Positions 34,528 through 45,568 of a DNA stretch of 45,661 nt are shown in pieces. The stretch lies in assembly GCA_021203185.1 (NCBI GenBank), contig JAJQBR010000046.1:1-45661 (forward strand). Reading direction: 5' to 3'. Numbering within the stretch: position 1 is the first letter of the stretch; each line of letters opens with the position of its first letter. This DNA is from Clostridiales bacterium (lineage in GTDB: Bacteria; Bacillota; Clostridia; Oscillospirales; Oscillospiraceae). A program made the position numbers and the translations under genes. The notes below the pieces were generated by a model. It was not told where the DNA came from. It ran no database searches and worked only from the letters and a program-made list of their open reading frames with translations.

Positions 34528-35274
34528 ATGCATTTCGTTATCGTAGAGGATATAGAGGCAGACAGGAATCATCTGATGGATCTCATCAGAAACGACTGCG
34601 CCGCCCACGATGAAATCGTGGAATTTTCGGTTTACTCCAGTGCGGAGGACTTTCTGGCGGACTTCCGCCGGGGGTTTTGCAGCGCCGTCTTTCTGGACAT
34701 TATGCTGGGCAAGGGGATAACCGGCATTGACGCGGCCTGGAAGGTTCGGACACTGGACGAATATCTGCCGATTGTTTTTACCACCACGGAAAAGGGGTTC
34801 GCCCTGGACAGCTACGGCATCCACGCCCTGGATTTCCTGGTTAAGCCGGTTCAGCAGGAGGCCATTCCCTGGTGCATGGGGCGGCTGCGGGAGGCGGCAG
34901 CTGCCCCGGAATACCTGGACGTCAAGGTAAAAGACGCAGGCGGAAGTACGTTCCTCACCCGGAGCGTTCTGTTGGACGAGCTGATCGACATCGAAGCCGT
35001 CCCACGGGGCTGTGTGCTACACACCGTAAAAGAGGATGTGTTCACGGCGCAGAAGCACATGGAGCTGAAAGAACTGATCCCAAAAACCGGACGCTTTTTT
35101 GAGTACGCCCGGGGAATGTCCGTCAACTTTTCCTTTGTCGTCTCCGTCAGCCTCAAGGGAGACATCCTCCTGAAGGACGGACGCCGCCTTTTTTGCAGCA
35201 GGCGGAAAACAAGGGAGACCATCGAGGCGTACCAGCGGTTTCAGTTTGCGCAGCTGCGCGCAAAGGGGGTCTGA
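34528..35274 (+). CDS. LytTR-family response regulator (AgrA-like)
   Basis: 248 residues. Receiver domain 1-120 with acidic pocket (VEDIEAD), phosphoacceptor Asp57 (VFLDIML), Thr/Ser region FTTTEKG and Lys106 (FLVKPV). The C-terminal half fits a LytTR DNA-binding domain (VLHTVKEDVFTAQKHMELKEL then FFEYARGMSVNF then LKDGRRLFCSRR). Such proteins bind pairs of short direct repeats upstream of -35 boxes. GAGGTGG lies before the ATG. The sensor kinase gene starts 2 bases after the stop. No agrB or agrD peptide gene is seen nearby. Confidence 0.88.
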   Translation: MHFVIVEDIEADRNHLMDLIRNDCAAHDEIVEFSVYSSAEDFLADFRRGFCSAVFLDIMLGKGITGIDAAWKVRTLDEYLPIVFTTTEKGFALDSYGIHALDFLVKPVQQEAIPWCMGRLREAAAAPEYLDVKVKDAGGSTFLTRSVLLDELIDIEAVPRGCVLHTVKEDVFTAQKHMELKELIPKTGRFFEYARGMSVNFSFVVSVSLKGDILLKDGRRLFCSRRKTRETIEAYQRFQFAQLRAKGV

Positions 35275-35276
35275 GG

Positions 35277-36593
35277 ATGGAAAGGTTTCTGGCCGTATTC
35301 TGCTTCGCAACGGCAGGCACTCTCCCCTACCGGGTGCTGGCCTATTACCCCTTTCGGAAGCAGCTCCGTTTTCCCATCTGGACTGTCATTCTGATCATCG
35401 GCATCGCCCAGCTGACCCAATCGTTCCTTTATGCGCTGCTGTCGGCACGGGGTGGCAACGGAGTGACCCTCATAGAGGGCATTTTTGCGCCGGCCTGTTT
35501 TGTCATCTACTGCATCTGCATCCGGGCAGACCGATGGAAGATACTGTTCCTTTATGTCTTTGTCTTTGACTATATCTCCCTTGTGTGGGGGACGGCGCGG
35601 TATCTGGAGTGTCTGCTCTTTTATGACCCTGATATGACCTTTGACACGCTGCGAAGCATGGCGTTCCAACTGATTATCCTGGGCGTGACCGTCCCGTTCA
35701 TCGCTCTGTTCCTCAATCGCACCAAAGACAAGGTGTTCTCAACGGAGGCGCCTACCTTCTGGCGGGTCATCTGGATTTTGCCGACCCTGACCACGTTGAT
35801 CGTTCAGCTCTATAACGGGAACCATACCGCAGAAAACGTACATCAGCTTCGGTTTTTCCTCTCTTATATCCTGCTGTTCCTGGAGATGTTCGCCGTTTAC
35901 TATGTCCTGATTCAGGCGCTGGACGTCATTCTACATGAGGCCGCGCTGGAAGAAAAAGCCGCGCAGCAGGAAACTCTCCTGGCCCTCCAGCGCACCCAGT
36001 ACAGCCAAATCTCTCGCTACATGGACGAAACCCGGCAGGCGCGGCACGACCTGTCTCAGCATCTGCGGCTCATCAACCAGTACCTGAACACCGGGGATCA
36101 GGACGCCCTCCGGGAATATGTGGAACGCTATCAGGACGCTCTGCCGCCGGAGAAGAACGTCTTTTTTTGCAAAAATTACGCCGTCAACACCATCGTCAGC
36201 TACTATTACGAGGAGGCACTCCAGTCCGGCATCGACTTTTCCGCAGGCCTGGACCTGCCGGAAGAGCTGCCCATCAGCGAACCGGAATTTTGCTCCATGC
36301 TGGGCAATCTGCTGGAAAACGCCCTCCTCTCCTGCCGGGATACCGTAGGCGCTGCGCCCTTTATCCGCGTTCTGGCCAAGACCCAGGGGGACACTTTGCT
36401 GCTGGCCATCGACAACACCTGCCTGCGAGAGCCGACCTGGGAGGACGGAAAACTCCGCTCCTCCCGGCATGACGGATTCGGGCTGGGAACGGCTTCGGTG
36501 CGTACCATTGCCTCCCATCACAACGGCACGGTCTTTTACACCTGGGCGGACGAGGTATTTTACGCCTCTGTGTCGCTGGCGCTGTCCTGTTGA
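35277..36593 (+). CDS. GHKL sensor histidine kinase (AgrC-like, HPK10)
   Basis: 438 residues. About six transmembrane segments cover residues 5-215, with no large extracellular domain, as in peptide or membrane sensors. A coiled coil (222-250) leads to the phosphoacceptor His257 in RQARHDLSQHL, followed by a GHKL ATPase domain with N-box GNLLENALLS and glycine motif HDGFGLGT. The ATG at 35277 lies 2 bases after the regulator stop codon, so the pair is translationally coupled; an earlier in-frame start would overlap the regulator. The signal is unknown. Confidence 0.88.
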   Translation: MERFLAVFCFATAGTLPYRVLAYYPFRKQLRFPIWTVILIIGIAQLTQSFLYALLSARGGNGVTLIEGIFAPACFVIYCICIRADRWKILFLYVFVFDYISLVWGTARYLECLLFYDPDMTFDTLRSMAFQLIILGVTVPFIALFLNRTKDKVFSTEAPTFWRVIWILPTLTTLIVQLYNGNHTAENVHQLRFFLSYILLFLEMFAVYYVLIQALDVILHEAALEEKAAQQETLLALQRTQYSQISRYMDETRQARHDLSQHLRLINQYLNTGDQDALREYVERYQDALPPEKNVFFCKNYAVNTIVSYYYEEALQSGIDFSAGLDLPEELPISEPEFCSMLGNLLENALLSCRDTVGAAPFIRVLAKTQGDTLLLAIDNTCLREPTWEDGKLRSSRHDGFGLGTASVRTIASHHNGTVFYTWADEVFYASVSLALSC

Positions 36594-36679
36594 CACTCCG
36601 TGGCAGACAGGTCGATACCGGTGAAATCTGTGAAAATCCCCCAGCTCTGATTATGGCAAATTGCACAAAAATAGCGCGT

Positions 36680-36696
36680 AAATTCTATTAAAATTT
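36680..36696. promoter_or_regulatory. Shared 17-base motif, copy 2 (upstream of the receiver-like gene)
   Basis: AAATTCTATTAAAATTT, 16 of 17 positions identical to the copy at 34319-34335. It lies 50 bases before the -35 box of the next promoter, so its position relative to that promoter differs from copy 1. Confidence 0.5.
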
Positions 36697-36745
36697 GGAA
36701 CTGCATACCGTTTACGCAGGATTTTGACCGTTCAGACAAAATCCC

Positions 36746-36774
36746 TTGAAAAAAGCCCCTCAAAATGGTACATT
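36746..36774 (+). promoter_or_regulatory. Promoter of the receiver-like gene
   Basis: TTGAAA (36746-36751), a 17-base spacer and TACATT (36769-36774), 74 bases before the start codon. The rest of the 255-base gap holds only the shared motif. Confidence 0.55.
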
Positions 36775-36848
36775 AAATCTGGAAATGGGATACTTGGAGA
36801 ATGTGGCATACTTCTCATAGCCCCATGAACCAGAAACGGAGGGGGAGC

Positions 36849-37280
36849 ATGGTTCGGTTTGTGATTTACGCAGACAGTGAGGAGGACACCAAATCACTGA
36901 TTCCCCTTCTCCGCGAAGAGGCCCGCAAACGGGGCAAGTGGGCCTTGATCCAGCCCTATGTTGGACAGGAAGCCTTGCCTCGCTACCTTTCCTTTGTCAA
37001 GAGGAATCCCTATCTGGTCATGGTCGTGGCAACGCGTGGCAGCAACGGGCGGACAATTGCTACTAAAATCCGGGAAAACAATCCCCTTGCCCGGATGCTC
37101 TGGTTCTCCGACCCGGACAACTGTGTGTATTCCTACCGAATCCATGTGACCTGCTTCGGCCTGCTCCCCCCCACCGAGGAGGGCGTCGCTCTCGCCCTGG
37201 ACGCCTGCGAACTCTCCTCTGAAAAACCGCCCACGGACAGCCAGGGCAAAAAACGGAACGTCCCCTCTACGCATGAGTGA
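36849..37280 (+). CDS. Stand-alone degenerate receiver-like protein
   Basis: 143 residues. The order of predicted strands and helices suggests a receiver fold: VRFVIYADSEEDTKSL with an acidic cluster, a third strand YLVMVVATRG, an IRENNPLARMLWFSD strand, and a CFGLLPPTEEG strand where receivers have the LLKP turn. The phosphoacceptor Asp at the end of strand 3 and the conserved Lys are both missing, so phosphorylation is not expected. No output domain follows; the last ~25 residues are polar. ATG 36849 has GGAGGGGG just upstream; the longer frame from 36801 is less likely. It lies behind an AgrA/AgrC-like pair with a shared upstream motif. The fold is an inference. Confidence 0.55.
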   Translation: MVRFVIYADSEEDTKSLIPLLREEARKRGKWALIQPYVGQEALPRYLSFVKRNPYLVMVVATRGSNGRTIATKIRENNPLARMLWFSDPDNCVYSYRIHVTCFGLLPPTEEGVALALDACELSSEKPPTDSQGKKRNVPSTHE

Positions 37281-37331: not shown

Positions 37332-37372
37332 ACCCCCTTCAAATCCCGGCGCTGACCAGATTTGAAGGGGGT
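37332..37372. terminator. Bidirectional terminator, end of the sulfoquinovose-type locus
   Basis: ACCCCCTTCAAATC (37332-37345) pairs perfectly with GATTTGAAGGGGGT (37359-37372). On the minus strand it is followed by GTTTTG and lies 40 bases after the isomerase stop codon; on the plus strand it can serve the receiver-like gene. Confidence 0.85.
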
Positions 37373-37412: not shown

Positions 37413-38753
37413 TCAGAACTTGCAGACCTCTGCCTGCAGCATATGCCCCAGCTTTTCCAGTTCGTTGGCTACGCTGTCGTAAATGACCACAAAATGCGGC
37501 TCCCAGCCACCCTTGACGCTGCCATAGACCACGTCCTTAGCGGGGGCGTCTGTTTTGACCACGATGGAGGTGCCGCAGAACTGCTTGGGCTTATCCAGAG
37601 CCGCGCCTTCCGCCAGGAAGAACCGGAAGCTGCCGTCCGGCTTGCGTCCCACCCGGAAGATGGTAACGTGGTCGCAAGCCTGACAGCCAAAGTCCATGGT
37701 GGGGCCGATTTTCCGGTTGGGATGGACGCCTACCGCCGCGCCGGTGTCCTTCCGGGCCAGTGAGCAGGCCGCCATGCCGCAATGCCAGAAGGTGACGGTT
37801 CCCTCCTCCTCGTCCATGGAGACGGGGTCGCCAAAGAAGGTGGCCTTGCCGGAGAGCTGGGAACCGATGTACATGGACAGCGCACCGTAGGCGTCCGATT
37901 CGCAGCTGGCGGCAGTGCCGTTTGCGTTCAGCAGCGACAGCACCGTACACACCGGTGTACCGAAGGAGGTGAAAAAGTCCGGCCAGCACCGGGAGGAAAT
38001 GGCTCCCACGCCGTTGTTCTGTACATACGCCTTGTATGCCTTGTACAGCCGAGCAAAATCCACCACGTTTTTCTCCGGGGTCTTGTCCAACCCCACCAGA
38101 GTCGCTTTTGCCTCGGCCAGCTCCTCGGCGCAGTCGTCAGCGGTGTACCCCTTAGCCACGTCGATGAGTTCTCTGGCCTCGATGGATTCCAGCGTAACGC
38201 CAAAGACGCTCATCATCTCCGCGTCCAGCGCCCGACCAAAGCCGAAGCCCTGCGGCGTGTGGCCGATGGAGGCCATCTTCAGGTGAGTCAAATCCACTTT
38301 CACCTTCGCGGCGCGGATGGCGGCGTTCAGCTCGTCGCGGACTTCTGCCTCGCCGGGGCCGCCAAAGATGTACTCAAACTGTCCCTCTCCCCGGAACGCC
38401 TGAATGGTGTTGGCGGCAGAATAGGCCCCGGTCAGGGAGTTCAGGCGCAAGCGGCCTCCGTCAATGACCGGCTCCCGCAGGGTCCACAGCAGGATGGGGC
38501 AGGAAAAGCGCTTGAGAACCTCGCTGGCATAGGCGGCGTTGGCAAAGGTGATGTTTTGCAGCACCACCAGATCCGGGGAAAGGCCGTCCAGATAGGCGGT
38601 CAGGTCGTCCAGTGTCAGCAGCATTTTCTCCGGGCAGACGGCGGCATCGGTCAGCGACCGCAGCAACGAAACAGACTGATCAAACTGAATCTGAGCGCTT
38701 TCCAAATGAAAGGTGCCGACGCCAATCGGCACATAGGCTACTTGGAATCCCAT
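37413..38753 (-). CDS. L-fucose/arabinose isomerase-fold protein, candidate sulfoquinovose isomerase
   Basis: 446 residues. The sequence fits the fucose-isomerase-like superfamily: an N-terminal Rossmann-like part with SPDLVVLQNITFANAAY, and a C-terminal metal-dependent part with SSRCWPDFFTSFGTPVC and ASCESDAYGALSMYI, whose acidic residues could bind the metal. In the transaldolase sulfoglycolysis pathway, as I recall, a protein of this superfamily (SftI) converts sulfoquinovose to 6-deoxy-6-sulfofructose. Position as the last gene of a unit with a sulfoquinovosidase-like GH31 supports that role. Another aldose or inositol-type substrate cannot be excluded. GGAGG lies 8 bases before the ATG. 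Confidence 0.72.
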   Translation of the reverse strand: MGFQVAYVPIGVGTFHLESAQIQFDQSVSLLRSLTDAAVCPEKMLLTLDDLTAYLDGLSPDLVVLQNITFANAAYASEVLKRFSCPILLWTLREPVIDGGRLRLNSLTGAYSAANTIQAFRGEGQFEYIFGGPGEAEVRDELNAAIRAAKVKVDLTHLKMASIGHTPQGFGFGRALDAEMMSVFGVTLESIEARELIDVAKGYTADDCAEELAEAKATLVGLDKTPEKNVVDFARLYKAYKAYVQNNGVGAISSRCWPDFFTSFGTPVCTVLSLLNANGTAASCESDAYGALSMYIGSQLSGKATFFGDPVSMDEEEGTVTFWHCGMAACSLARKDTGAAVGVHPNRKIGPTMDFGCQACDHVTIFRVGRKPDGSFRFFLAEGAALDKPKQFCGTSIVVKTDAPAKDVVYGSVKGGWEPHFVVIYDSVANELEKLGHMLQAEVCKF

Positions 38754-38882
38754 GAGAGGTTCCTCCTTTACTGTGATTTCACCGTTGATTGATTTAGAGA
38801 ATCATCAAATGATGTTTTGAAAAAGGCAACCCGCCCATCAGAGGAACGGGTTGCCGGAATTGGATGGGTCAGGAAATCAGGA

Positions 38883-40529
38883 TCAGGCGTCGCTGTCGGT
38901 TTTCGTGTCAGCGTCCTCCTCACTGTCGTCCGTGCCGCCTCTGGCGGGACGGGGACCCCACTTGTTGTGTTCAGTCTGGTCGATGGCTTCCGCGTCGAAC
39001 TTCTGGTGGTTGGCGGCCATTTCCGCCTCCTGCTCGGCGTTGGCCTTTTCAATGCGCTTATTCAGACGCATCATGGAGACCAGCAGCACCACGGTCAGGA
39101 TCAGGATGACCAGGGAGATGGGACGGCGGAAGAAGATGGTGTAATCCCGGTCATAGCTCATGGAGGCAGTGACAAAGTTCTTCTCCATAATGCTCTCCAA
39201 AATCATACCCAGCATCAGCGGCGTGTTGTCGATGTCCAGCAGCGTCAGAATGTAGCTGAACACCAAGATAGCGGCGGTCAGCACCAATTCCTTGGTGTTG
39301 TTGGTGGCCGCAAACGCACCGGCGAAGCAGAACATGATGATGGCAGGGGCCAGGTAGGTGTACCGCACCTGGACGATTTTCGCCACGGCGCGGGTCAGGG
39401 CCAGGCCGAAAGGAGCCAGGAAGATGTTGGCCACCAGCAGGCCGAAGATGATGGTGTAGGCCATGACGCCCTGCTTGGTGAACAGGGTGGGGCCGGGAGT
39501 GATGCCGTGAAGGACGAAAGCGCCCAGCAGCAGGGCGGTGACGCCGTCGCCGGGGATACCCAGGGTCAGCAGGGGAATCATGGCGGAGCCAACCACCGCG
39601 TTGTTGGAGGACTCAGCGGCGGCGATGCCTTCCAGACAGCCCTTGCCGAACTCCTCCGGGTGCTTGGAGGTGCGGCGCGCCTCGTTGTAGCACAGGAACT
39701 GGGCCACGCCGCCGCCCACGCCGGGCATGGCGCCCAAAACGGAAGCGATGCCGGAGGACCGCAGACAGGCGGGCAGGATGGACTTGGCCTCCTTCATGGT
39801 CAGGCCCTCTTTGTCGATCTTGTTGGCGTCGTCCAGTTTGCCGCCGGCCAGCTTGAAGTCCCGGAGCTTCATAACCACCTGGGTCAGCGCAATCAGGGCA
39901 ATCATGGCGGGCAGGATGTCGATGCCGTATTTCAGCGTTTTCAGGCCAAAGGAGAAGCGGGAAACGCCGGTGACGGAGTCCAGACCGATGCAGCCCATCA
40001 GCAGGCCAATCATGCCGGAGATGATGGCCTTGGGCAGGCTGCCGCCGGAAACGCCGGCAATCAGGGAGATGCCCAGAATGCCCATGGCGAAGTATTCCAC
40101 CGAGGTAAAGTTGGCGACCAGCTTGGCGATGATCTGTGCGCACAGCAGCAGCAGAATGGCGGAGAACAGACCGCCGAAGGTGGAGGCGAACAGGGAGGTA
40201 TCCAGCGCCTTCTTGACCTTGCCCTTCTTCGCCAGGGGATAGCCGTCGAAGGTGGTGGCAATGGCCGAGTTGGTGCCGGGGGTGTTCAGGGTAATGGCCG
40301 AAATCGACCCGCCGTACATACCGCCCACGTAGACGGCCAGCAGCAGGATGATGGCGGTGGCCGCGTCGTCAAAGGTGTAAGTCAGCGGCAGCATCAGCAC
40401 GATACCCAGCGTGACGCTCAGGCCGGGGATACAGCCTACCACCATGCCGATGGCCAGGCCGATACAAATCATGGCGATGTTGGTCAGGGTGAATGTCTGG
40501 ATAAAAGCAGCTCCAATATCTGCAAACAT
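38883..40529 (-). CDS. tctA: Tripartite tricarboxylate transporter large membrane subunit, TctA
   Basis: 548 residues with about 11-12 transmembrane segments. The signature GCIPGLSVTLGIVLMLPLT near residues 33-51 and a second half-repeat GAMPGVGGGVAQFLCY define the TctA family. The C-terminal ~50 residues are a charged cytoplasmic tail. TctA forms the ion-driven channel of secondary transporters that use a TctC binding protein, mostly for organic anions such as citrate. It starts 6 bases after tctB. Given the neighbours, an anionic sugar such as sulfoquinovose or its glycoside is a reasonable substrate guess. Confidence 0.93.
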   Translation of the reverse strand: MFADIGAAFIQTFTLTNIAMICIGLAIGMVVGCIPGLSVTLGIVLMLPLTYTFDDAATAIILLLAVYVGGMYGGSISAITLNTPGTNSAIATTFDGYPLAKKGKVKKALDTSLFASTFGGLFSAILLLLCAQIIAKLVANFTSVEYFAMGILGISLIAGVSGGSLPKAIISGMIGLLMGCIGLDSVTGVSRFSFGLKTLKYGIDILPAMIALIALTQVVMKLRDFKLAGGKLDDANKIDKEGLTMKEAKSILPACLRSSGIASVLGAMPGVGGGVAQFLCYNEARRTSKHPEEFGKGCLEGIAAAESSNNAVVGSAMIPLLTLGIPGDGVTALLLGAFVLHGITPGPTLFTKQGVMAYTIIFGLLVANIFLAPFGLALTRAVAKIVQVRYTYLAPAIIMFCFAGAFAATNNTKELVLTAAILVFSYILTLLDIDNTPLMLGMILESIMEKNFVTASMSYDRDYTIFFRRPISLVILILTVVLLVSMMRLNKRIEKANAEQEAEMAANHQKFDAEAIDQTEHNKWGPRPARGGTDDSEEDADTKTDSDA

Positions 40530-40535
40530 AACTTA

Positions 40536-41003
40536 TCAACCTCCAAACAGTTCGCCCGTAGGCAGCGGAATGTTGAAAATGTTCTTAAACATCAGGTAAA
40601 TCAGAATGGAAGCGATGACAATGTAGACATAAACCGGCCATTTTCGCTCACCGCAGAAGAATACGATGGCGATAAAGGTGACGATGGATGCGGGAACGTA
40701 GCCAATTTGGATGATGAGTACCACGTAGACGCACAGCATCGCAATGAGAATGATGGCGGGTCTTTCCCTCTGCCAGTCGAACTCAACGATTTTTTCTTTC
40801 TTAAAGACCAGGCTCTGCACCAGCAGTACGACGGAGAAGATCAGCATGATCACCAGGCAGATGCCGGGGATAATGCGGGGACTGGGCGCGCCGGAGTCAT
40901 AAGCAGGCTCCCGCACCTGACTGGGCAGCAGGATCAACAAAATCAAGCTGGCCAGACCCATGATAATGCCGCTCCAGAGGTACGTCCTGATTTTGAATTT
41001 CAT
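40536..41003 (-). CDS. tctB: Tripartite tricarboxylate transporter small membrane subunit, TctB
   Basis: 155 residues with four transmembrane segments (about 8-27, 45-63, 85-118 as two, 125-143), the TctB pattern. The PRIIPGICL motif after the first loop is typical. The ATG at 41003 is preceded by GGGGAAA; a longer frame from 41042 is rejected. The partner of TctA in the same unit. Confidence 0.88.
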   Translation of the reverse strand: MKFKIRTYLWSGIIMGLASLILLILLPSQVREPAYDSGAPSPRIIPGICLVIMLIFSVVLLVQSLVFKKEKIVEFDWQRERPAIILIAMLCVYVVLIIQIGYVPASIVTFIAIVFFCGERKWPVYVYIVIASILIYLMFKNIFNIPLPTGELFGG

Positions 41004-41192
41004 AGGAATTTCCCCTTTCCGCAGGAATGGAACCGGACACAAACGGGCGTATCCACGGGGACGGGCCGGTCACTGGCCGGGCCGCCCCCGAAAAAACGCC
41101 GCTCCCCTCCTGCCGGAGACCCGCCCCGTAAAGAGACGGGCCTCACTGACAGGAGGTAAAAAAGGAATGAAAAACAGGGAAGGGACAGGGGA
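41004..41192 (-). promoter_or_regulatory. tctC-tctB intergenic region with GC-rich hairpins
   Basis: 189 bases on the minus strand. CCCGT/ACGGG and a larger GGCC-rich inverted repeat (near 41078-41097) can form hairpins, without a proper U-tract. Such structures often lower expression of membrane subunits relative to the binding protein; that role is an inference. Confidence 0.35.
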
Positions 41193-42272
41193 TTATTCAG
41201 CGCTCAGAATGTCGTAAGCGTTAAGAGCCTTGACGCAGGCTTCGTCCATGAAGGTAACCGCTTCTTCGCCATAAATCTGGAAGTTGTTCAGCAGGACGGA
41301 ATCAATCCACTCGTAGTAATCGGCCTCAGCCCAGACGTTCTCGGTAATCTCGATCATGTCGTTGTAGAAGTCCTCGTCGCATCCGGTGTGTGCGGCCAGC
41401 ATACCGCCGCCGGGCAGGATGGAGCTGGAGAAGTCGGTATCAGCGTCCAGTTCAGCAGCCTTGGTGTCGCCAGCCACGGTGGGAACAGTGATGGCGTCGC
41501 CGTTTTCGTCCACGAAGCCGGTGAACTCAGTGTCAGAGAAGGCCAGGATGGGGATCAGAGTGCCAGCCTCGACCTCGTCCTGCGCGGCCTGGGTGGAGCC
41601 AACGAATACGTCGACCTCGCCGTCGGTCAGGCCCTTCTTCTGCTCGGCGCCGCCGTCATAGCCGGAGACGACGGTCACGCTGCCGCCCATCTGAGCCAGC
41701 AGGGAACCCAGCGCCAGATGCGGGTCAGACAGGGGGTTGCCACCGGACATCTTGATGCCCTCGGTCTGGGCTTTCTCCAGGATGCTCTCCAGAGACTGAT
41801 CGGGAGTGGTGTAGAGGATCCAGGTACGGTCGTCGATGGAACCGACAGCAGTAAAGTTGGCACGATCGAAGTCCACTTCCTCGGTGCCGTAGGTAGTACC
41901 CAGGTCGGCACGGTAAGCCAAGCCATAACCGTAGACCAGCAGATCCATGGTGTCGGCGTCCTCATCCGCGAACTGGGTCGCAGCGGAGAAGCCGTCGCCG
42001 CCGGTGACGTTGGTGACGATGAAGTTGTAATCAGACTGAATGGTGTTGGCTACCTGCGCATACTTACGGGCAACCGCGTCAGCGGTGCCGCCGGTGCCGT
42101 AGCCGCAGATGATGGTGACGGTGGTGCCGCCGTTGGAGACGGTTTCTTCCTCTTCCTCGGTAGCGGTGGACGAATCAGTGGTGGTGTCATCGGAGCTGGA
42201 GCTGGAAGAGCTGCAGGCTGCCAGTGACAGGATCATGGCCAGGGCCATAATCAGGGCGAGTAGTTTCTTCAT
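41193..42272 (-). CDS. tctC: Tripartite tricarboxylate transporter substrate-binding lipoprotein, TctC
   Basis: 359 residues. A lipoprotein signal peptide (MKKLLALIMALAMILSLAAC) puts lipidated Cys20 at the outer face of the membrane, followed by a Ser/Thr/Glu-rich linker to about residue 50. The rest is a TctC/Bug-type two-lobe binding protein: IICGYGTGGTADAVARKYAQ is the first ligand loop, ANFTAVGSIDD and SGGNPLSDPHLALG follow. TATGGAGG precedes the ATG at 42272. It captures the substrate for TctAB. The gene is separated from the upstream glycosidase by a structured 267-base gap. Confidence 0.9.
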   Translation of the reverse strand: MKKLLALIMALAMILSLAACSSSSSSSDDTTTDSSTATEEEEETVSNGGTTVTIICGYGTGGTADAVARKYAQVANTIQSDYNFIVTNVTGGDGFSAATQFADEDADTMDLLVYGYGLAYRADLGTTYGTEEVDFDRANFTAVGSIDDRTWILYTTPDQSLESILEKAQTEGIKMSGGNPLSDPHLALGSLLAQMGGSVTVVSGYDGGAEQKKGLTDGEVDVFVGSTQAAQDEVEAGTLIPILAFSDTEFTGFVDENGDAITVPTVAGDTKAAELDADTDFSSSILPGGGMLAAHTGCDEDFYNDMIEITENVWAEADYYEWIDSVLLNNFQIYGEEAVTFMDEACVKALNAYDILSAE

Positions 42273-42539
42273 TTTTTTACCTCCATAAATAAAATGAATT
42301 GTGGGACGACAACACCTCGCACTTCGGCGGCGATTTGTTGTGTGCGAAGCGATTTGGCACGTCAAAGCGAAAAGCTGAGACTAGGAGCGTATCCCCGTGG
42401 GGATCTCAGACTTTTGCCAGATCGTGACGAACCGCTCCAGCATACACGCTGCGGCGCTCTTTGCGCGGTGTTGTCTGGCATATTTCTCCGGCGGGAAGGA
42501 AGCCCCCGCCGTAAAGAACAGGGTTTGAGGGTTTACAGG
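42273..42539 (-). promoter_or_regulatory. Structured gap between GH31 gene and tctC
   Basis: No gene is seen. On the minus strand a CGGCGGG/CCCGCCG hairpin follows the GH31 stop codon. Further on CTGAGA and TCTCAG (42409-42404 and 42380-42375) pair around an inner ATCCCC/GGGGAT stem and are followed by CTTTT, a terminator-like structure. A possible second promoter for tctC would lie beyond it, but no good -35/-10 pair stands out. Confidence 0.4.
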
Positions 42540-44546
42540 TTATTTTGCGTACTTCTCCCGAATCCCGTCCAGCAGGGCGGCCCAGGGAGAGTTTTTCTTG
42601 TAGAACACCGGGGTATCGCCCAGCGGCGCAGCGACAGTGTGGGTTCCCTTGCCGTAGGCTTCGCCGCTCCACAGGTGGAGCCACTCCCCTTCCGGCAGAT
42701 AAACCTCCCAGTCCGTCACGCCGGACTGCCACACCGGGGCCACCAGAATATCCGGCCCCAGCAGGTACTCAAACTGGTTGGTGTAGCACGCCTCGTCGTC
42801 CTCGTTGTGGAGGAACAGGGGCCGCTGAACGGGGAGGCCCTTTTGGGCGTTTTCCGCCGCCAGCGCCTTGAGGCAGGGGGTCAAAGCGGTGTAAATTTTC
42901 ACCAGCCGGGCCAACTGCGCCATGCAGTCCTCATCGTCGTAATACTGGAAGTTCTGCTCCGGGCGGTTGCACTCATGGGTGCGCATGACCAACGTAAAGG
43001 CCGCCATCTCCGCCCAGCGGAGAAACAGCTCTTTGGTGCGGACGTTTTCGTACATGGAGGTGTAGCCGCCAATGTCGCTGTGGGTCAGCCCACAGCCGCT
43101 CATACCGGCGCTGAGGGCGGCGCAGATGACGGTGCAAAGCCCGTCGTGCCGGGAGAAGTCCACCGACTGATCCCCCGCCCACAGCAGTGGGCAATATTTC
43201 TGGCTGCCGGTCCCTCCGGCCCGCATGAAGTAGACCACCTGACCCCACTTGTCGGTTTCCACCAGGGCGTCGTGGTTGCACCTGGCCCACAGAGTCGGCC
43301 AGCGGTTGTGTTCCAGCATGGGGGAATTGCCGCTGGCAAGGCAGATGTCATCGGTGGGGAGGTATTCCCCAAAGTCGCACATATAGCCGTCCATGCCGAT
43401 GTCCAGCATATTCTTTTTGATGACGTTGTCCTTATACCAGGCGTAAGCCTTGGGGTCAGTCAGGTCAATGACGCCACATTCAAACTCCCCGAAGTCCACC
43501 AGATAGGTGCTGCCGTCGGCGCGTTTGGCGAAAACGTCCGCCTTCTCCGCCGCCGGGAACAGATCGCCGCCGGTGCAGAGATAGGGGCTGATGTAGCCCA
43601 GGAAACGGATGCCCCTTTTGTGCAGCGCGGCAATTTGTCCCGGCAAATCGGGATACAGCGCCGTGTTGTAATGCCAGTCCCAGCGCAGCCGCTTGCCAAA
43701 GGAGGTGTAGCGGATACCGGCCCAATCCTGGCACCACACGCCGGAGACGGGAATCCCCGCCGCAATAGTTCTGTCCACCAGACCAAAGGACCGCACGCTG
43801 CCCCCCTGAACGCCTACGATGAGACCGTTATAAATCCAGTCAGGCAGTTCCGGTTGATGGCCCAGGAGAGCGGTCAGTTTCTCCAGCAGCGCCGGAAAGG
43901 TCTCCGCCGCCTCAATGCGGATGCTGGCCGGAACCTGCCAGAATTGCAGCTCGTGGAAGGTTTCGTTGCGGAAGTCGAAGTCCGCATAGGAGGATGCGTC
44001 CGCGTGGAGGTAATAGTGCCGGGAGGACACGAAGGTGGGCTGGGGATAGTTGGTGTTGTAGTAGTCGCCGCCACCCTTGCAGTCCTGGTCGTACCGCCAG
44101 GTCAGGTAGGTGGATTTGTCCCGTCCCACCCCCGGCTCAGAGGTCCACAGGGGGAAATGACGGCCCCGCAGGTCGAAATAAGACATCTGCTCGCCGCAGC
44201 CGTAGCAATGCTCTCCCTGTTCCGCCTGAACGCGGAACCAAAAGCGGTTGACAGCGGGGTTTTTCTGCGCAAAGGTCAGGGTGACGCAGTCCCCATCCTG
44301 CCGGACGAGGGCGGTCAGTTCATTTTCAAAGTTCAGCAGCAGACCGTCTTTGGTCTGCTCCGCGTCGGATATCATCAGGGGGCGGCGCTCGGTGACATAG
44401 TCTCCGATGGTGAAGTTGCCCCGGTACATCTCCACCGATTCGCTGCCCTGGCCCACATAAATCATGGGGCAGGCTTTTGTTGAGGTTAAAAGGGTATGTT
44501 TGCCGTATTGCAGGGTAAGATCCAGGCCATTGCGAATGAGTTCCAT
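42540..44546 (-). CDS. GH31 sulfoquinovosidase (YihQ/SftG-like)
   Basis: 668 residues, close to the 678 of E. coli YihQ. It should cleave alpha-sulfoquinovosyl glycosides such as sulfoquinovosyl glycerol. Nucleophile Asp391 is in MCDFGEYLPTD and acid/base Asp459 in LLWAGDQSVD. The sulfonate-binding residues of YihQ (Gln288, Arg301, Trp304, Tyr508) have counterparts at Gln273 (WCQDW), Arg286 (FGKRLRW), Trp289 and Tyr495 (HSDIGGYT), with a constant offset of 13-15. No signal peptide, so cytoplasmic: glycosides must be imported intact. ATG 44546 follows GAGAGGT; a longer frame to 44693 is rejected. It follows DUF4867 after 56 bases. Confidence 0.88.
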   Translation of the reverse strand: MELIRNGLDLTLQYGKHTLLTSTKACPMIYVGQGSESVEMYRGNFTIGDYVTERRPLMISDAEQTKDGLLLNFENELTALVRQDGDCVTLTFAQKNPAVNRFWFRVQAEQGEHCYGCGEQMSYFDLRGRHFPLWTSEPGVGRDKSTYLTWRYDQDCKGGGDYYNTNYPQPTFVSSRHYYLHADASSYADFDFRNETFHELQFWQVPASIRIEAAETFPALLEKLTALLGHQPELPDWIYNGLIVGVQGGSVRSFGLVDRTIAAGIPVSGVWCQDWAGIRYTSFGKRLRWDWHYNTALYPDLPGQIAALHKRGIRFLGYISPYLCTGGDLFPAAEKADVFAKRADGSTYLVDFGEFECGVIDLTDPKAYAWYKDNVIKKNMLDIGMDGYMCDFGEYLPTDDICLASGNSPMLEHNRWPTLWARCNHDALVETDKWGQVVYFMRAGGTGSQKYCPLLWAGDQSVDFSRHDGLCTVICAALSAGMSGCGLTHSDIGGYTSMYENVRTKELFLRWAEMAAFTLVMRTHECNRPEQNFQYYDDEDCMAQLARLVKIYTALTPCLKALAAENAQKGLPVQRPLFLHNEDDEACYTNQFEYLLGPDILVAPVWQSGVTDWEVYLPEGEWLHLWSGEAYGKGTHTVAAPLGDTPVFYKKNSPWAALLDGIREKYAK

Positions 44547-44602
44547 AAGTAAGACCTCTCTTTTCTCTGGACACGAATGTGCCTCATTAATAATCAAAAC
44601 AA

Positions 44603-45271
44603 TTAATAATAAAGCACTTTGTTCTCTCCCAAAAGACCGGGGAAAGCTCCCTGGCGGATGAGCGGCTCCCGCTCCGGGTGGGCAATGACCCATTTGTTGG
44701 TCTGGAGGAGCAGACGGCTCTCCGGGTCAGCGGCGACGGCTTTTTCCGCCAACGGCGTGTTAGTCCCACAGGGCAAAACGACAATCGCCTTGAACCCCTC
44801 ATCCGTCACCCGGCAGGGGGACAGGTGCAGTGTGGTCTGGTACAGCTCGATGGCAGTTCCCTGCTCCACGAAGAACACCTCAGCGTCCTCCACCCGGTAG
44901 GTGTTATCCTGGATCAGCCAGACGTGGCCCAGCACCAGCATCAGGTCGGTGACGGCCACGTTGATCTCGCTGCCCTTGTGGTACTCAAAGCCGTTATAGG
45001 TGGTGTTGCGCCCGTTGCAGTAGCCCACCTGGATGGGCATTCCGCCGTAAAACACCGCTTGCAGCTGCTCTGTCACGGGATCCTGCTCCATCTCCGGCAC
45101 TGAGGCCAGGTAGATGTTCCCATTTTCCGGGATGGGGGTTTGCTGCTCCATATACGCAGTCAGGCCGGAGAAATCATAGCCTTCGATCACACGCCCGTAG
45201 GTGGCAAAGGCAGGCTCCCGGACAGAGCGCACAGGGACATCGTTGACCTGGTTCAGCCGTTCGAGGGTCAT
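44603..45271 (-). CDS. DUF4867 family protein (SftX-like)
   Basis: 222 residues. The motifs FEYHKGSEINVAVTDLML and a cupin-like series (VEDAEVFFVEQGTAIELYQTTLHLSPC) match DUF4867, a family of unknown function. As I recall, a DUF4867 gene (sftX) accompanies the transaldolase-type sulfoglycolysis genes of Firmicutes. A cupin fold could suit a sugar mutarotase, isomerase or binding protein; this is a guess. ATG 45271 has AAGGAG 10 bases upstream; a longer frame to 45403 is rejected. First gene visible in the unit, about 270 bases downstream of a strong promoter. Confidence 0.78.
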   Translation of the reverse strand: MTLERLNQVNDVPVRSVREPAFATYGRVIEGYDFSGLTAYMEQQTPIPENGNIYLASVPEMEQDPVTEQLQAVFYGGMPIQVGYCNGRNTTYNGFEYHKGSEINVAVTDLMLVLGHVWLIQDNTYRVEDAEVFFVEQGTAIELYQTTLHLSPCRVTDEGFKAIVVLPCGTNTPLAEKAVAADPESRLLLQTNKWVIAHPEREPLIRQGAFPGLLGENKVLYY

Positions 45272-45539: not shown

Positions 45540-45568
45540 AATATATAGTTATTTTGCACCATTGTCAA
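45540..45568 (-). promoter_or_regulatory. Near-consensus promoter of the sulfoquinovose-type locus
   Basis: On the minus strand TTGACA (45568-45563), a 17-base spacer and TATATT (45545-45540). The region 45272-45661 has no gene; it is much more AT-rich than its neighbours. An alternative TTGATA followed by a TGTATT-like box lies nearer the gene (about 45392-45367), and the dyad-like CTCGATATCAAC at 45391-45402 could be an operator. GGACTTTT (45597-45604) and AAAAGTCC near 45633-45640 form an inverted repeat, possibly the terminator of the gene beyond the window. Confidence 0.68.

Follow-up and report, generated by a model that had tools for sequence, protein, structure and literature searches.

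A predicted split transketolase-type sulfoquinovose pathway fed by a tripartite tricarboxylate-type transporter in a Clostridiales bacterium

How is sulfoquinovose (SQ) taken up by Clostridia, and by which pathway is it degraded after uptake? Both questions are raised by a six-gene locus in a 45,661-nucleotide stretch of DNA (the window), which is the whole of contig JAJQBR010000046.1 (C196) of the Clostridiales bacterium assembly GCA_021203185.1 (here G000; 2.48 Mb, 198 contigs, completeness 98.5%); compared genomes are likewise given G-numbers and compared loci L-numbers. In order of transcription on the minus strand, the genes between positions 45271 and 37413 encode a DUF4867 protein, a GH31 glycosidase, the three components of a tripartite tricarboxylate transporter (TTT; tctC, tctB, tctA) and an isomerase (Table 1). 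An original prediction, made from the letters of the window, had placed these six genes correctly and had read them as a variant of a transaldolase-type cluster, reduced to import, glycoside cleavage and isomerisation. We consider it probable that the locus is instead the first half of a split transketolase-type SQ pathway, fed by the TTT and with its second half on another contig of the same genome, C74.

In this predicted pathway the TTT would import SQ or its glycerol glycoside, the GH31 enzyme would cleave the SQ glycoside and the isomerase would convert SQ to 6-deoxy-6-sulfofructose (SF). Transfer of two C2 units from SF to glyceraldehyde-3-phosphate would fall to a split transketolase (SqwGH-like), with an RpiB/LacAB-type isomerase (SqwI-like) acting between the two transketolase steps. 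Isethionate would arise by reduction of sulfoacetaldehyde through an Fe-alcohol dehydrogenase (SqwF-like) and be exported by an EamA permease. Gene content, gene order, family membership, the lack of any transaldolase match genome-wide, and linkage and co-occurrence in relatives are direct observations, whereas all substrates, the direction of transport and regulation are predictions throughout.

The assignment of the locus to SQ, which had been part of the original prediction, was well supported by families and residues. The GH31 protein scored 927 bits against NCBIfam PRK10426 (cut-off 553) and kept all seven E. coli YihQ positions that were checked (Q288, R301, W304, D405, D472, Y508 and H537), which we take to be catalytic and sulfonate-site residues; many of the remoter loci have Q in place of R301. 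Its prediction as a sulfoquinovosidase of the YihQ/SftG type is thus well supported by family score and residues; by eye, its start has no visible signal peptide. Its best PDB match was 6pnr (1014 bits), a deposit code in PMC11968277 (E. rectale SftG). The DUF4867 protein scored 255 bits against PF16161 (cut-off 28.7), had 9gyy as its nearest solved structure (245 bits) and carries the metal-site pattern E-x-H-x3-E (EYHKGSE) and TTLH; the metal-ligand residues of the B. megaterium DUF4867 protein are given in PMC11968277. The protein may act on SF, as suggested by the neighbouring genes rather than by a proven activity. A second DUF4867 protein with the same metal-site motif is encoded in G000 at L131 (G000:C87, 3720-7359), where its neighbours are a distant AraA/FucI-type isomerase on one side and, on the other, an FGGY sugar kinase, the kinase being named by eye.

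The isomerase of the window had no Pfam match. Its predicted model (predicted local distance difference test (pLDDT) score 93.8) matched L-arabinose and L-fucose isomerases, and E285, D309, H324 and H420 were invariant in all 33 aligned rows (33 isomerases chosen from those found); they agree with the E, E/D, H, H metal ligand pattern of AraA/FucI. Against the NCBIfam SftI equivalog (NF048012) it scored 408 bits, below the curated cut-off of 700, which counts against its assignment as an SQ isomerase. Isomerases within complete clusters also scored just 411-425 bits, so the protein is placed in a separate subgroup and is not classed as the SftI equivalog. The low score would suit a locus for a different sugar acid or sulfosugar, acted on by GH31 and isomerase, as would the occurrence of DUF4867 beside non-sulfo sugar genes, both on C87 and in a published network (PMC11968277). 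Such a locus is highly improbable in view of the full set of sulfoquinovosidase residues, of the sulfoglycolytic-type transaldolase or transketolase genes found within 10 kb in 42 of 59 isomerase loci, and of the same cluster in L083, which comes from a species with a reported SQ-growing strain.

The lower half of the pathway decides between the transaldolase and transketolase types. Genome-wide searches of G000 gave no match to the transaldolase family PF00923 and none to PF14833, which marks the sulfolactaldehyde (SLA) reductase of the PF03446+PF14833 type; in 14 control genomes, PF00923 was matched in 10 and PF14833 in 9. Among ten genomes searched, PF00923 was found in three (G009, G061 and G062) and PF14833 in two (G061 and G062), and neither in the other seven (G000, G015, G020, G027, G035 and the genomes of L036 and L037). 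On C74, genes for an EamA permease, an RpiB/LacAB isomerase, the N- and C-terminal transketolase subunits (TKn and TKc) and an Fe-alcohol dehydrogenase lie in a row, so that split transketolase, RpiB-type isomerase and dehydrogenase of the transketolase-type (sulfo-TK) pathway are present as one set. Five genes of this kind (73-88% identity) stand beside ROK regulator, isomerase and tct genes in G009 (L124), L036 and L037. The Oscillibacter loci L039 and L076 have, on a single strand, genes for TKn, TKc and the dehydrogenase in front of DUF4867-GH31-TauE-tctCBA-isomerase; linkage of a sulfo-TK gene set to the SQ isomerase was observed at L124, L036, L037, L039, L076 and L182-L187. The module lies apart from the isomerase locus in G015, G020 and G027, as in G000. 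The missing PF00923 and PF14833, the module on C74 and the joined halves in G009, L036 and L037 together indicate the first half of a split sulfo-TK pathway and not a reduced transaldolase cluster.

A reduced transaldolase-type locus, in which SQ would be imported, cleaved and isomerised and SF handed to other enzymes or excreted, would agree with the content of the window locus itself, which holds just genes for these steps and DUF4867, with the presence of SftT in 9 of 18 TTT loci, and with the sister genome G020 (L066), where pyrC-, pyrF- and pyrK-like genes (by eye) occupy the upstream position in place of SftT and reductase. With neither family matched in seven of the ten genomes and the transketolase module present in G000, G009, G015, G020, G027 and the genomes of L036 and L037, this reading is very unlikely, and this part of the original prediction was not upheld.

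The predicted split sulfo-TK pathway was also examined by co-occurrence. Among 59 related genomes the isomerase was found in six (E below 1e-100: G000, G009, G015, G020, G027 and G035) and an SqwF-like dehydrogenase gene in six (E <= 1e-90: G000, G009, G015, G020, G027 and G025), with both in five (Fisher p 7e-6, a value that ignores kinship); the locus is nearly identical in four of these genomes, so the association reflects few independent events. Within the family the isomerase was present in 9 of 250 genomes, and seven of the eight besides G000 had a transketolase subunit within about 1.5 kb, the eighth (G035) being cut by a contig end. As a control, family genomes with a TKc 54-61% identical to that of C74 and no isomerase were inspected (eight of the nine best TKc matches besides G000's own, G200 being left out; some contigs were short, such as L248 with 5.6 kb), and in none of the eight did a dehydrogenase, RpiB or EamA gene lie beside the transketolase. 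Transketolase alone was dropped as a marker, 229 of 250 family genomes having a relative at E <= 1e-50.

Several further points weigh against the proposed pathway. The two halves are unlinked in G000, and they are 67.5 kb apart on one contig in G020. G009, of the same genus and with the joined cluster, has one PF00923 gene on another contig. The C74 TKc is 54-61% identical to ordinary TKc of genomes with no isomerase and 46-48% to the SQ-locus TKc of G166 and others; taken together, the SQ-locus transketolases do not resemble it more than ordinary transketolases do, and its functional assignment therefore rests on linkage. The C74 dehydrogenase is just 39% identical to that of F. jeddahensis, and a 70% identical dehydrogenase in G025 has neither isomerase nor transketolase near it. 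No tct gene separates GH31 and isomerase in L040. Finally, neither transaldolase nor phosphoketolase (PF09364) was found in G000 for the return of xylulose-5-phosphate to glycolysis; the sole phosphoketolase match among nine genomes, in G009, was barely over the cut-off, covered 115 of 364 positions and lay beside a transketolase match. A sedoheptulose-bisphosphate route is one option for the return of pentose phosphates. The G025 dehydrogenase gene (L190, G025:C5, 8751-12158) stands beside aminotransferase-like (by eye) and TauE-like genes and is perhaps part of a taurine-to-isethionate route. A separate row in G000 (L126, G000:C158, 660-5296) encodes an AraA/FucI-type isomerase (96 bits against NF048012), a split transketolase and a GlpK-like FGGY kinase, and is a candidate for a sugar route with similar enzyme logic.

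The same predicted steps and enzyme families are known from the sulfo-TK pathway of Clostridium sp. MSTE9 and of Caproiciproducens/Faecalicatena (SqvD, SqwGH, SqwI, SqwF and SqwE; PMC12890257, PMC11659671, PMC13219744). Identities to F. jeddahensis (L053) and C. sporosphaeroides (L079) were 63-65% for the isomerase, 54-56% for TKn/TKc and 58-60% for RpiB, and Faecalicatena likewise has a permease of the drug/metabolite type as a candidate exporter. The present system differs from those described in its two unlinked gene sets, in a TTT importer instead of ABC (ATP-binding cassette) carriers and in EamA in place of TauE. With the transaldolase-type (sulfo-TAL, SFT) clusters of E. rectale, B. megaterium and Enterocloster clostridioformis (SftT, SftR, SftI, SftG and SftX; PMC11968277, PMC12330013), the locus shares DUF4867, GH31 and isomerase, whereas no PF00923 transaldolase and no SLA reductase of the PF14833 type accompany them in G000.

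How widely the TTT is shared was determined by searching reference genomes for the isomerase (one query protein, reaching close relatives). The search gave 50 loci, 16 of them with tctA; together with the window, L124, L125 and L182-L187, 59 loci were sorted by importer and pathway. The 18 TTT loci comprised nine with transaldolase, five with the transketolase set and four with neither within reach (the window, L066, and L034 and L074, which are cut by contig ends). DUF4867 was present in 15 and GH31 in 16 of the 18; GH31 was missing from L034 and L037, whose contigs start inside the tct genes, and DUF4867 also from L124, all of these being contig-end cuts, and the missing part of L037 sits on another contig of its genome (L222). 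Of the 59 isomerase genes, 43 had a GH31 match no more than 10 kb away. These counts answer in part a check proposed with the original prediction, namely whether isomerase and DUF4867 fall in clades of loci that have no sulfoquinovosidase.

Clusters with both transaldolase and TTT were found in C. transplantifaecale, Oribacterium, C. aminophilum and C. clostridioforme, in the order SftT, reductase, DUF4867, GH31, TauE, tctC, tctB, tctA, isomerase, ROK regulator. The same gene order in several genera ruled out a chance neighbourhood. In an isomerase tree of 57 rows and 2 outgroup rows (L176, L178 and L180, which are the same loci as L066, L035 and L034, and the isomerases shorter than 1150 bases, L071 and L078, were left out), the TTT loci were divided between two groups with good support, one of 13 and one of 9 rows; these groups also include some loci with no tct gene in view (L035, which is cut, L040, L045 and L049). 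Within the 13-row group, the transketolase-bearing Oscillibacter and window groups form one set (support 97/93) beside transaldolase-bearing loci. The simplest story is that the upper half was kept and the lower half exchanged during evolution, and sulfoglycolysis may thus evolve by module swap.

The transporter was identified as a TTT by TctA (PF01970, 453 bits) and TctB (PF07331, 65 bits) and, for TctC, which had no Pfam match, by fold: the predicted model (pLDDT 87.7) had TctC, Bug27, TphC, MatC and BugD among its best PDB matches. The TctC N-terminus carries an LSLAAC lipobox (by eye); 374 relatives were found at E <= 1e-5, and 45 rows were chosen from those found for alignment. TctA gave a single match in G000. 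In a tree built with 28 of 30 fetched TctA loci (L211 and L216, below 300 aa, were left out; 8 of the 28 were SQ loci again, 20 were entered as 'other', and of these L200 and L210 are SQ-type tct copies on their own contigs), the SQ-type TctA formed one clade of 19 rows on a long branch (support 100/100), with 18 other TctA outside. The single match and the separate clade ruled out that this TctA is one of a generic set. Own TctA clade, TctC with no Pfam match and a predicted sugar-sulfonate substrate instead of carboxylates set the system apart from known TctABC transporters.

Import of SQ or its glycerol glycoside by the TTT is likely, the substrate being predicted from linkage. Alternatively, the TTT would export a sulfonate product or import some other anion, such as a short sulfonate, with SQ entering by an unseen carrier. 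TTT families are best known for carboxylates, and two genomes, G015 and G027, have a copy of tctA behind which stands not the isomerase gene but one of the glycyl radical sulfite-lyase type, which would fit isethionate. The literature attributes SQ import to SftA or to ABC carriers and draws some cluster genes white, with no function (PMC12330013, PMC11659671, PMC8397734). Importers other than TTT (MFS_2, SSF, ABC) lay within 10 kb in none of the 18 TTT loci and in 29 of the 41 other isomerase loci, 12 of which show no recognised importer; the cut-offs were set after the gene content of the loci had been viewed, and they drop a 54-bit ABC-ATPase-like match in L044 and L077. Moreover, 15 of the 18 TTT loci already have an export-type TauE or EamA permease, the nine with transaldolase follow a route not known to yield isethionate, and a TTT with a binding lipoprotein is of uptake design. 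With this evidence, export or import of another anion is unlikely.

The original prediction had described the TTT as a family not seen linked to sulfosugars, and the open-access literature searched agreed: among the matches listed, no TTT-sulfoquinovose link was found, and the match for sulfoquinovose with tripartite tricarboxylate concerned taurine. E. clostridioformis YL32 is reported to degrade SQ to 2,3-dihydroxypropane-1-sulfonate (DHPS), with SftA named as importer (PMC12330013). The sulfo-TAL cluster of [Clostridium] clostridioforme AGR2157 (L083) has tctCBA between GH31 and isomerase, as here, and the spacing of the YL32 locus tags (SftT 09315, SftR 09310, YihQ 09300 and SftI 09270; PMC12330013) leaves room for tct genes between YihQ and SftI, as read from the tags. 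SQ uptake in Clostridia is poorly settled, and a TTT that is conserved in Lachnospiraceae and Oscillospiraceae, in clusters of both the transaldolase and the transketolase type, and carried also by the species of a strain with reported growth on SQ, makes it directly testable with one binding protein. If the prediction is true, sugar sulfonates are added to the TTT substrate range.

The fate of the predicted isethionate may be indicated by contig C164 of G000, where L235 (8751-12117) encodes an IslA/HpsG-type glycyl radical enzyme and its activase (97% identity), with counterparts in G015 (L221, 1706-5084) and G027 (L236, 1431-4848). The enzyme scored 1483 bits against NF048011 (HpsG type; cut-off 1000) and matched 5ymr (1199 bits), 7kq3 (1183) and 6lon (1146), IslA structures scoring about equally to 6lon; the activase stayed below the NF048010 cut-off (369 bits against 430). 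Glycyl radical enzymes at this level were found in 3 of the 59 related genomes (G000, G015 and G027; not in G020 or G009), other matches being 29-36% identical. HpsG and IslA can both cleave isethionate (PMC13219744), and the substrate of the C164 enzyme is probably isethionate, because no route to DHPS was found in G000. From known IslA/HpsG lyases it differs in its genome, which also has a predicted sulfo-TK pathway.

In G015 (L221) a partial tctC, tctB and tctA, 92% identical to the window over 2.9 kb of DNA, precede the glycyl radical enzyme, activase and a ROK regulator, and in G027 (L236) a partial tctA at the contig end precedes the same three genes. As the tctA 3' end also stands in front of the isomerase in G015 (L035) and G027 (L034), two tct copies are likely in these genomes, with the caveat that contigs break at the tct genes and that the full TctA count in G015 is one. 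The ROK protein beside the lyase is 54-55% identical to that beside the isomerase in G009. In G000 about 130 bases of tctA 3' end with the tctA hairpin (L235, 8365-8497; 91-96% identical to window 38816-39024) lie before the lyase gene, likely a trace of a lost tct copy. The tctA copy, shared hairpin and ROK regulator beside the lyase in sister species suggest that the lyase was recruited into the SQ regulon. Sulfite release from SQ is described in the literature consulted as cross-feeding, in which one organism ferments the sulfosugar and another respires the sulfonate. It is conceivable, and we put it forward tentatively, that one fermenter would convert SQ to isethionate by TTT and split sulfo-TK and then, by the C164 lyase, to acetaldehyde and sulfite; should the lyase be part of this pathway, a single organism could free sulfite from a major plant sulfolipid sugar with no partner. 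A search of G000 for sulfite reductase gave a short AsrC-like protein below the cut-off (134.6 against 324.1). This AsrC/NirB-like sulfite reductase-type protein is encoded at L246 (G000:C153, 377-5295) in a row with thioredoxin-, TusA-, ThiS-, ThiF- and JAMM-like proteins (by eye); by eye the row looks like a sulfur-assimilation cluster, possibly a sulfite sink.

Table 1. Positions of genes and candidate signals of the sulfoquinovose locus in the window
Feature	Position	Strand	Basis
Promoter-like site TTGACA-17-TATATT	45540..45568	-	11/12 match; 269 bases upstream of first gene
DUF4867 (SftX-like) cupin-family protein, 222 aa	44603..45271	-	PF16161
GH31 predicted sulfoquinovosidase, 668 aa	42540..44546	-	PRK10426, best PDB match 6pnr, residues
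TctC-like solute-binding lipoprotein	41193..42272	-	fold match, alignment
TctB, small membrane subunit	40536..41003	-	PF07331
TctA, large membrane subunit	38883..40529	-	PF01970, tree
Terminator-like hairpin behind tctA and before isomerase gene; 12 pairs followed by TTTTT	38825..38855	-	terminator scan
AraA/FucI-fold isomerase, predicted sulfoquinovose isomerase	37413..38753	-	NCBIfam, fold, conserved residues
Hairpin, 14 perfect pairs, loop 13, then TTTT	37332..37372	-	read from sequence

The signals bounding the operon were of unequal weight. The near-consensus promoter of the original prediction was confirmed as a motif; its occurrence was not above chance by count, with 3 such sites in the region and 3.2 in shuffled sequence, and the contig edge lies 390 bases upstream of the first gene. 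Terminator-like sites numbered 14, compared with 8.0 (standard deviation 3.0) in shuffles, and a hairpin near-identical to that behind tctA also occurs 3' of tctA in L221. The perfect hairpin behind the isomerase gene, which had been proposed as the terminator, was recovered as described, though with just TTTT behind it, and is likely to act as such; it is not among the sites of the terminator scan, which allowed loops of up to 8. An Rfam scan of the window gave no match. Just downstream of the operon, on the opposite strand (34528-37280), a LytTR response regulator-like and sensor kinase-like pair and a short similar regulator were recognised by eye.

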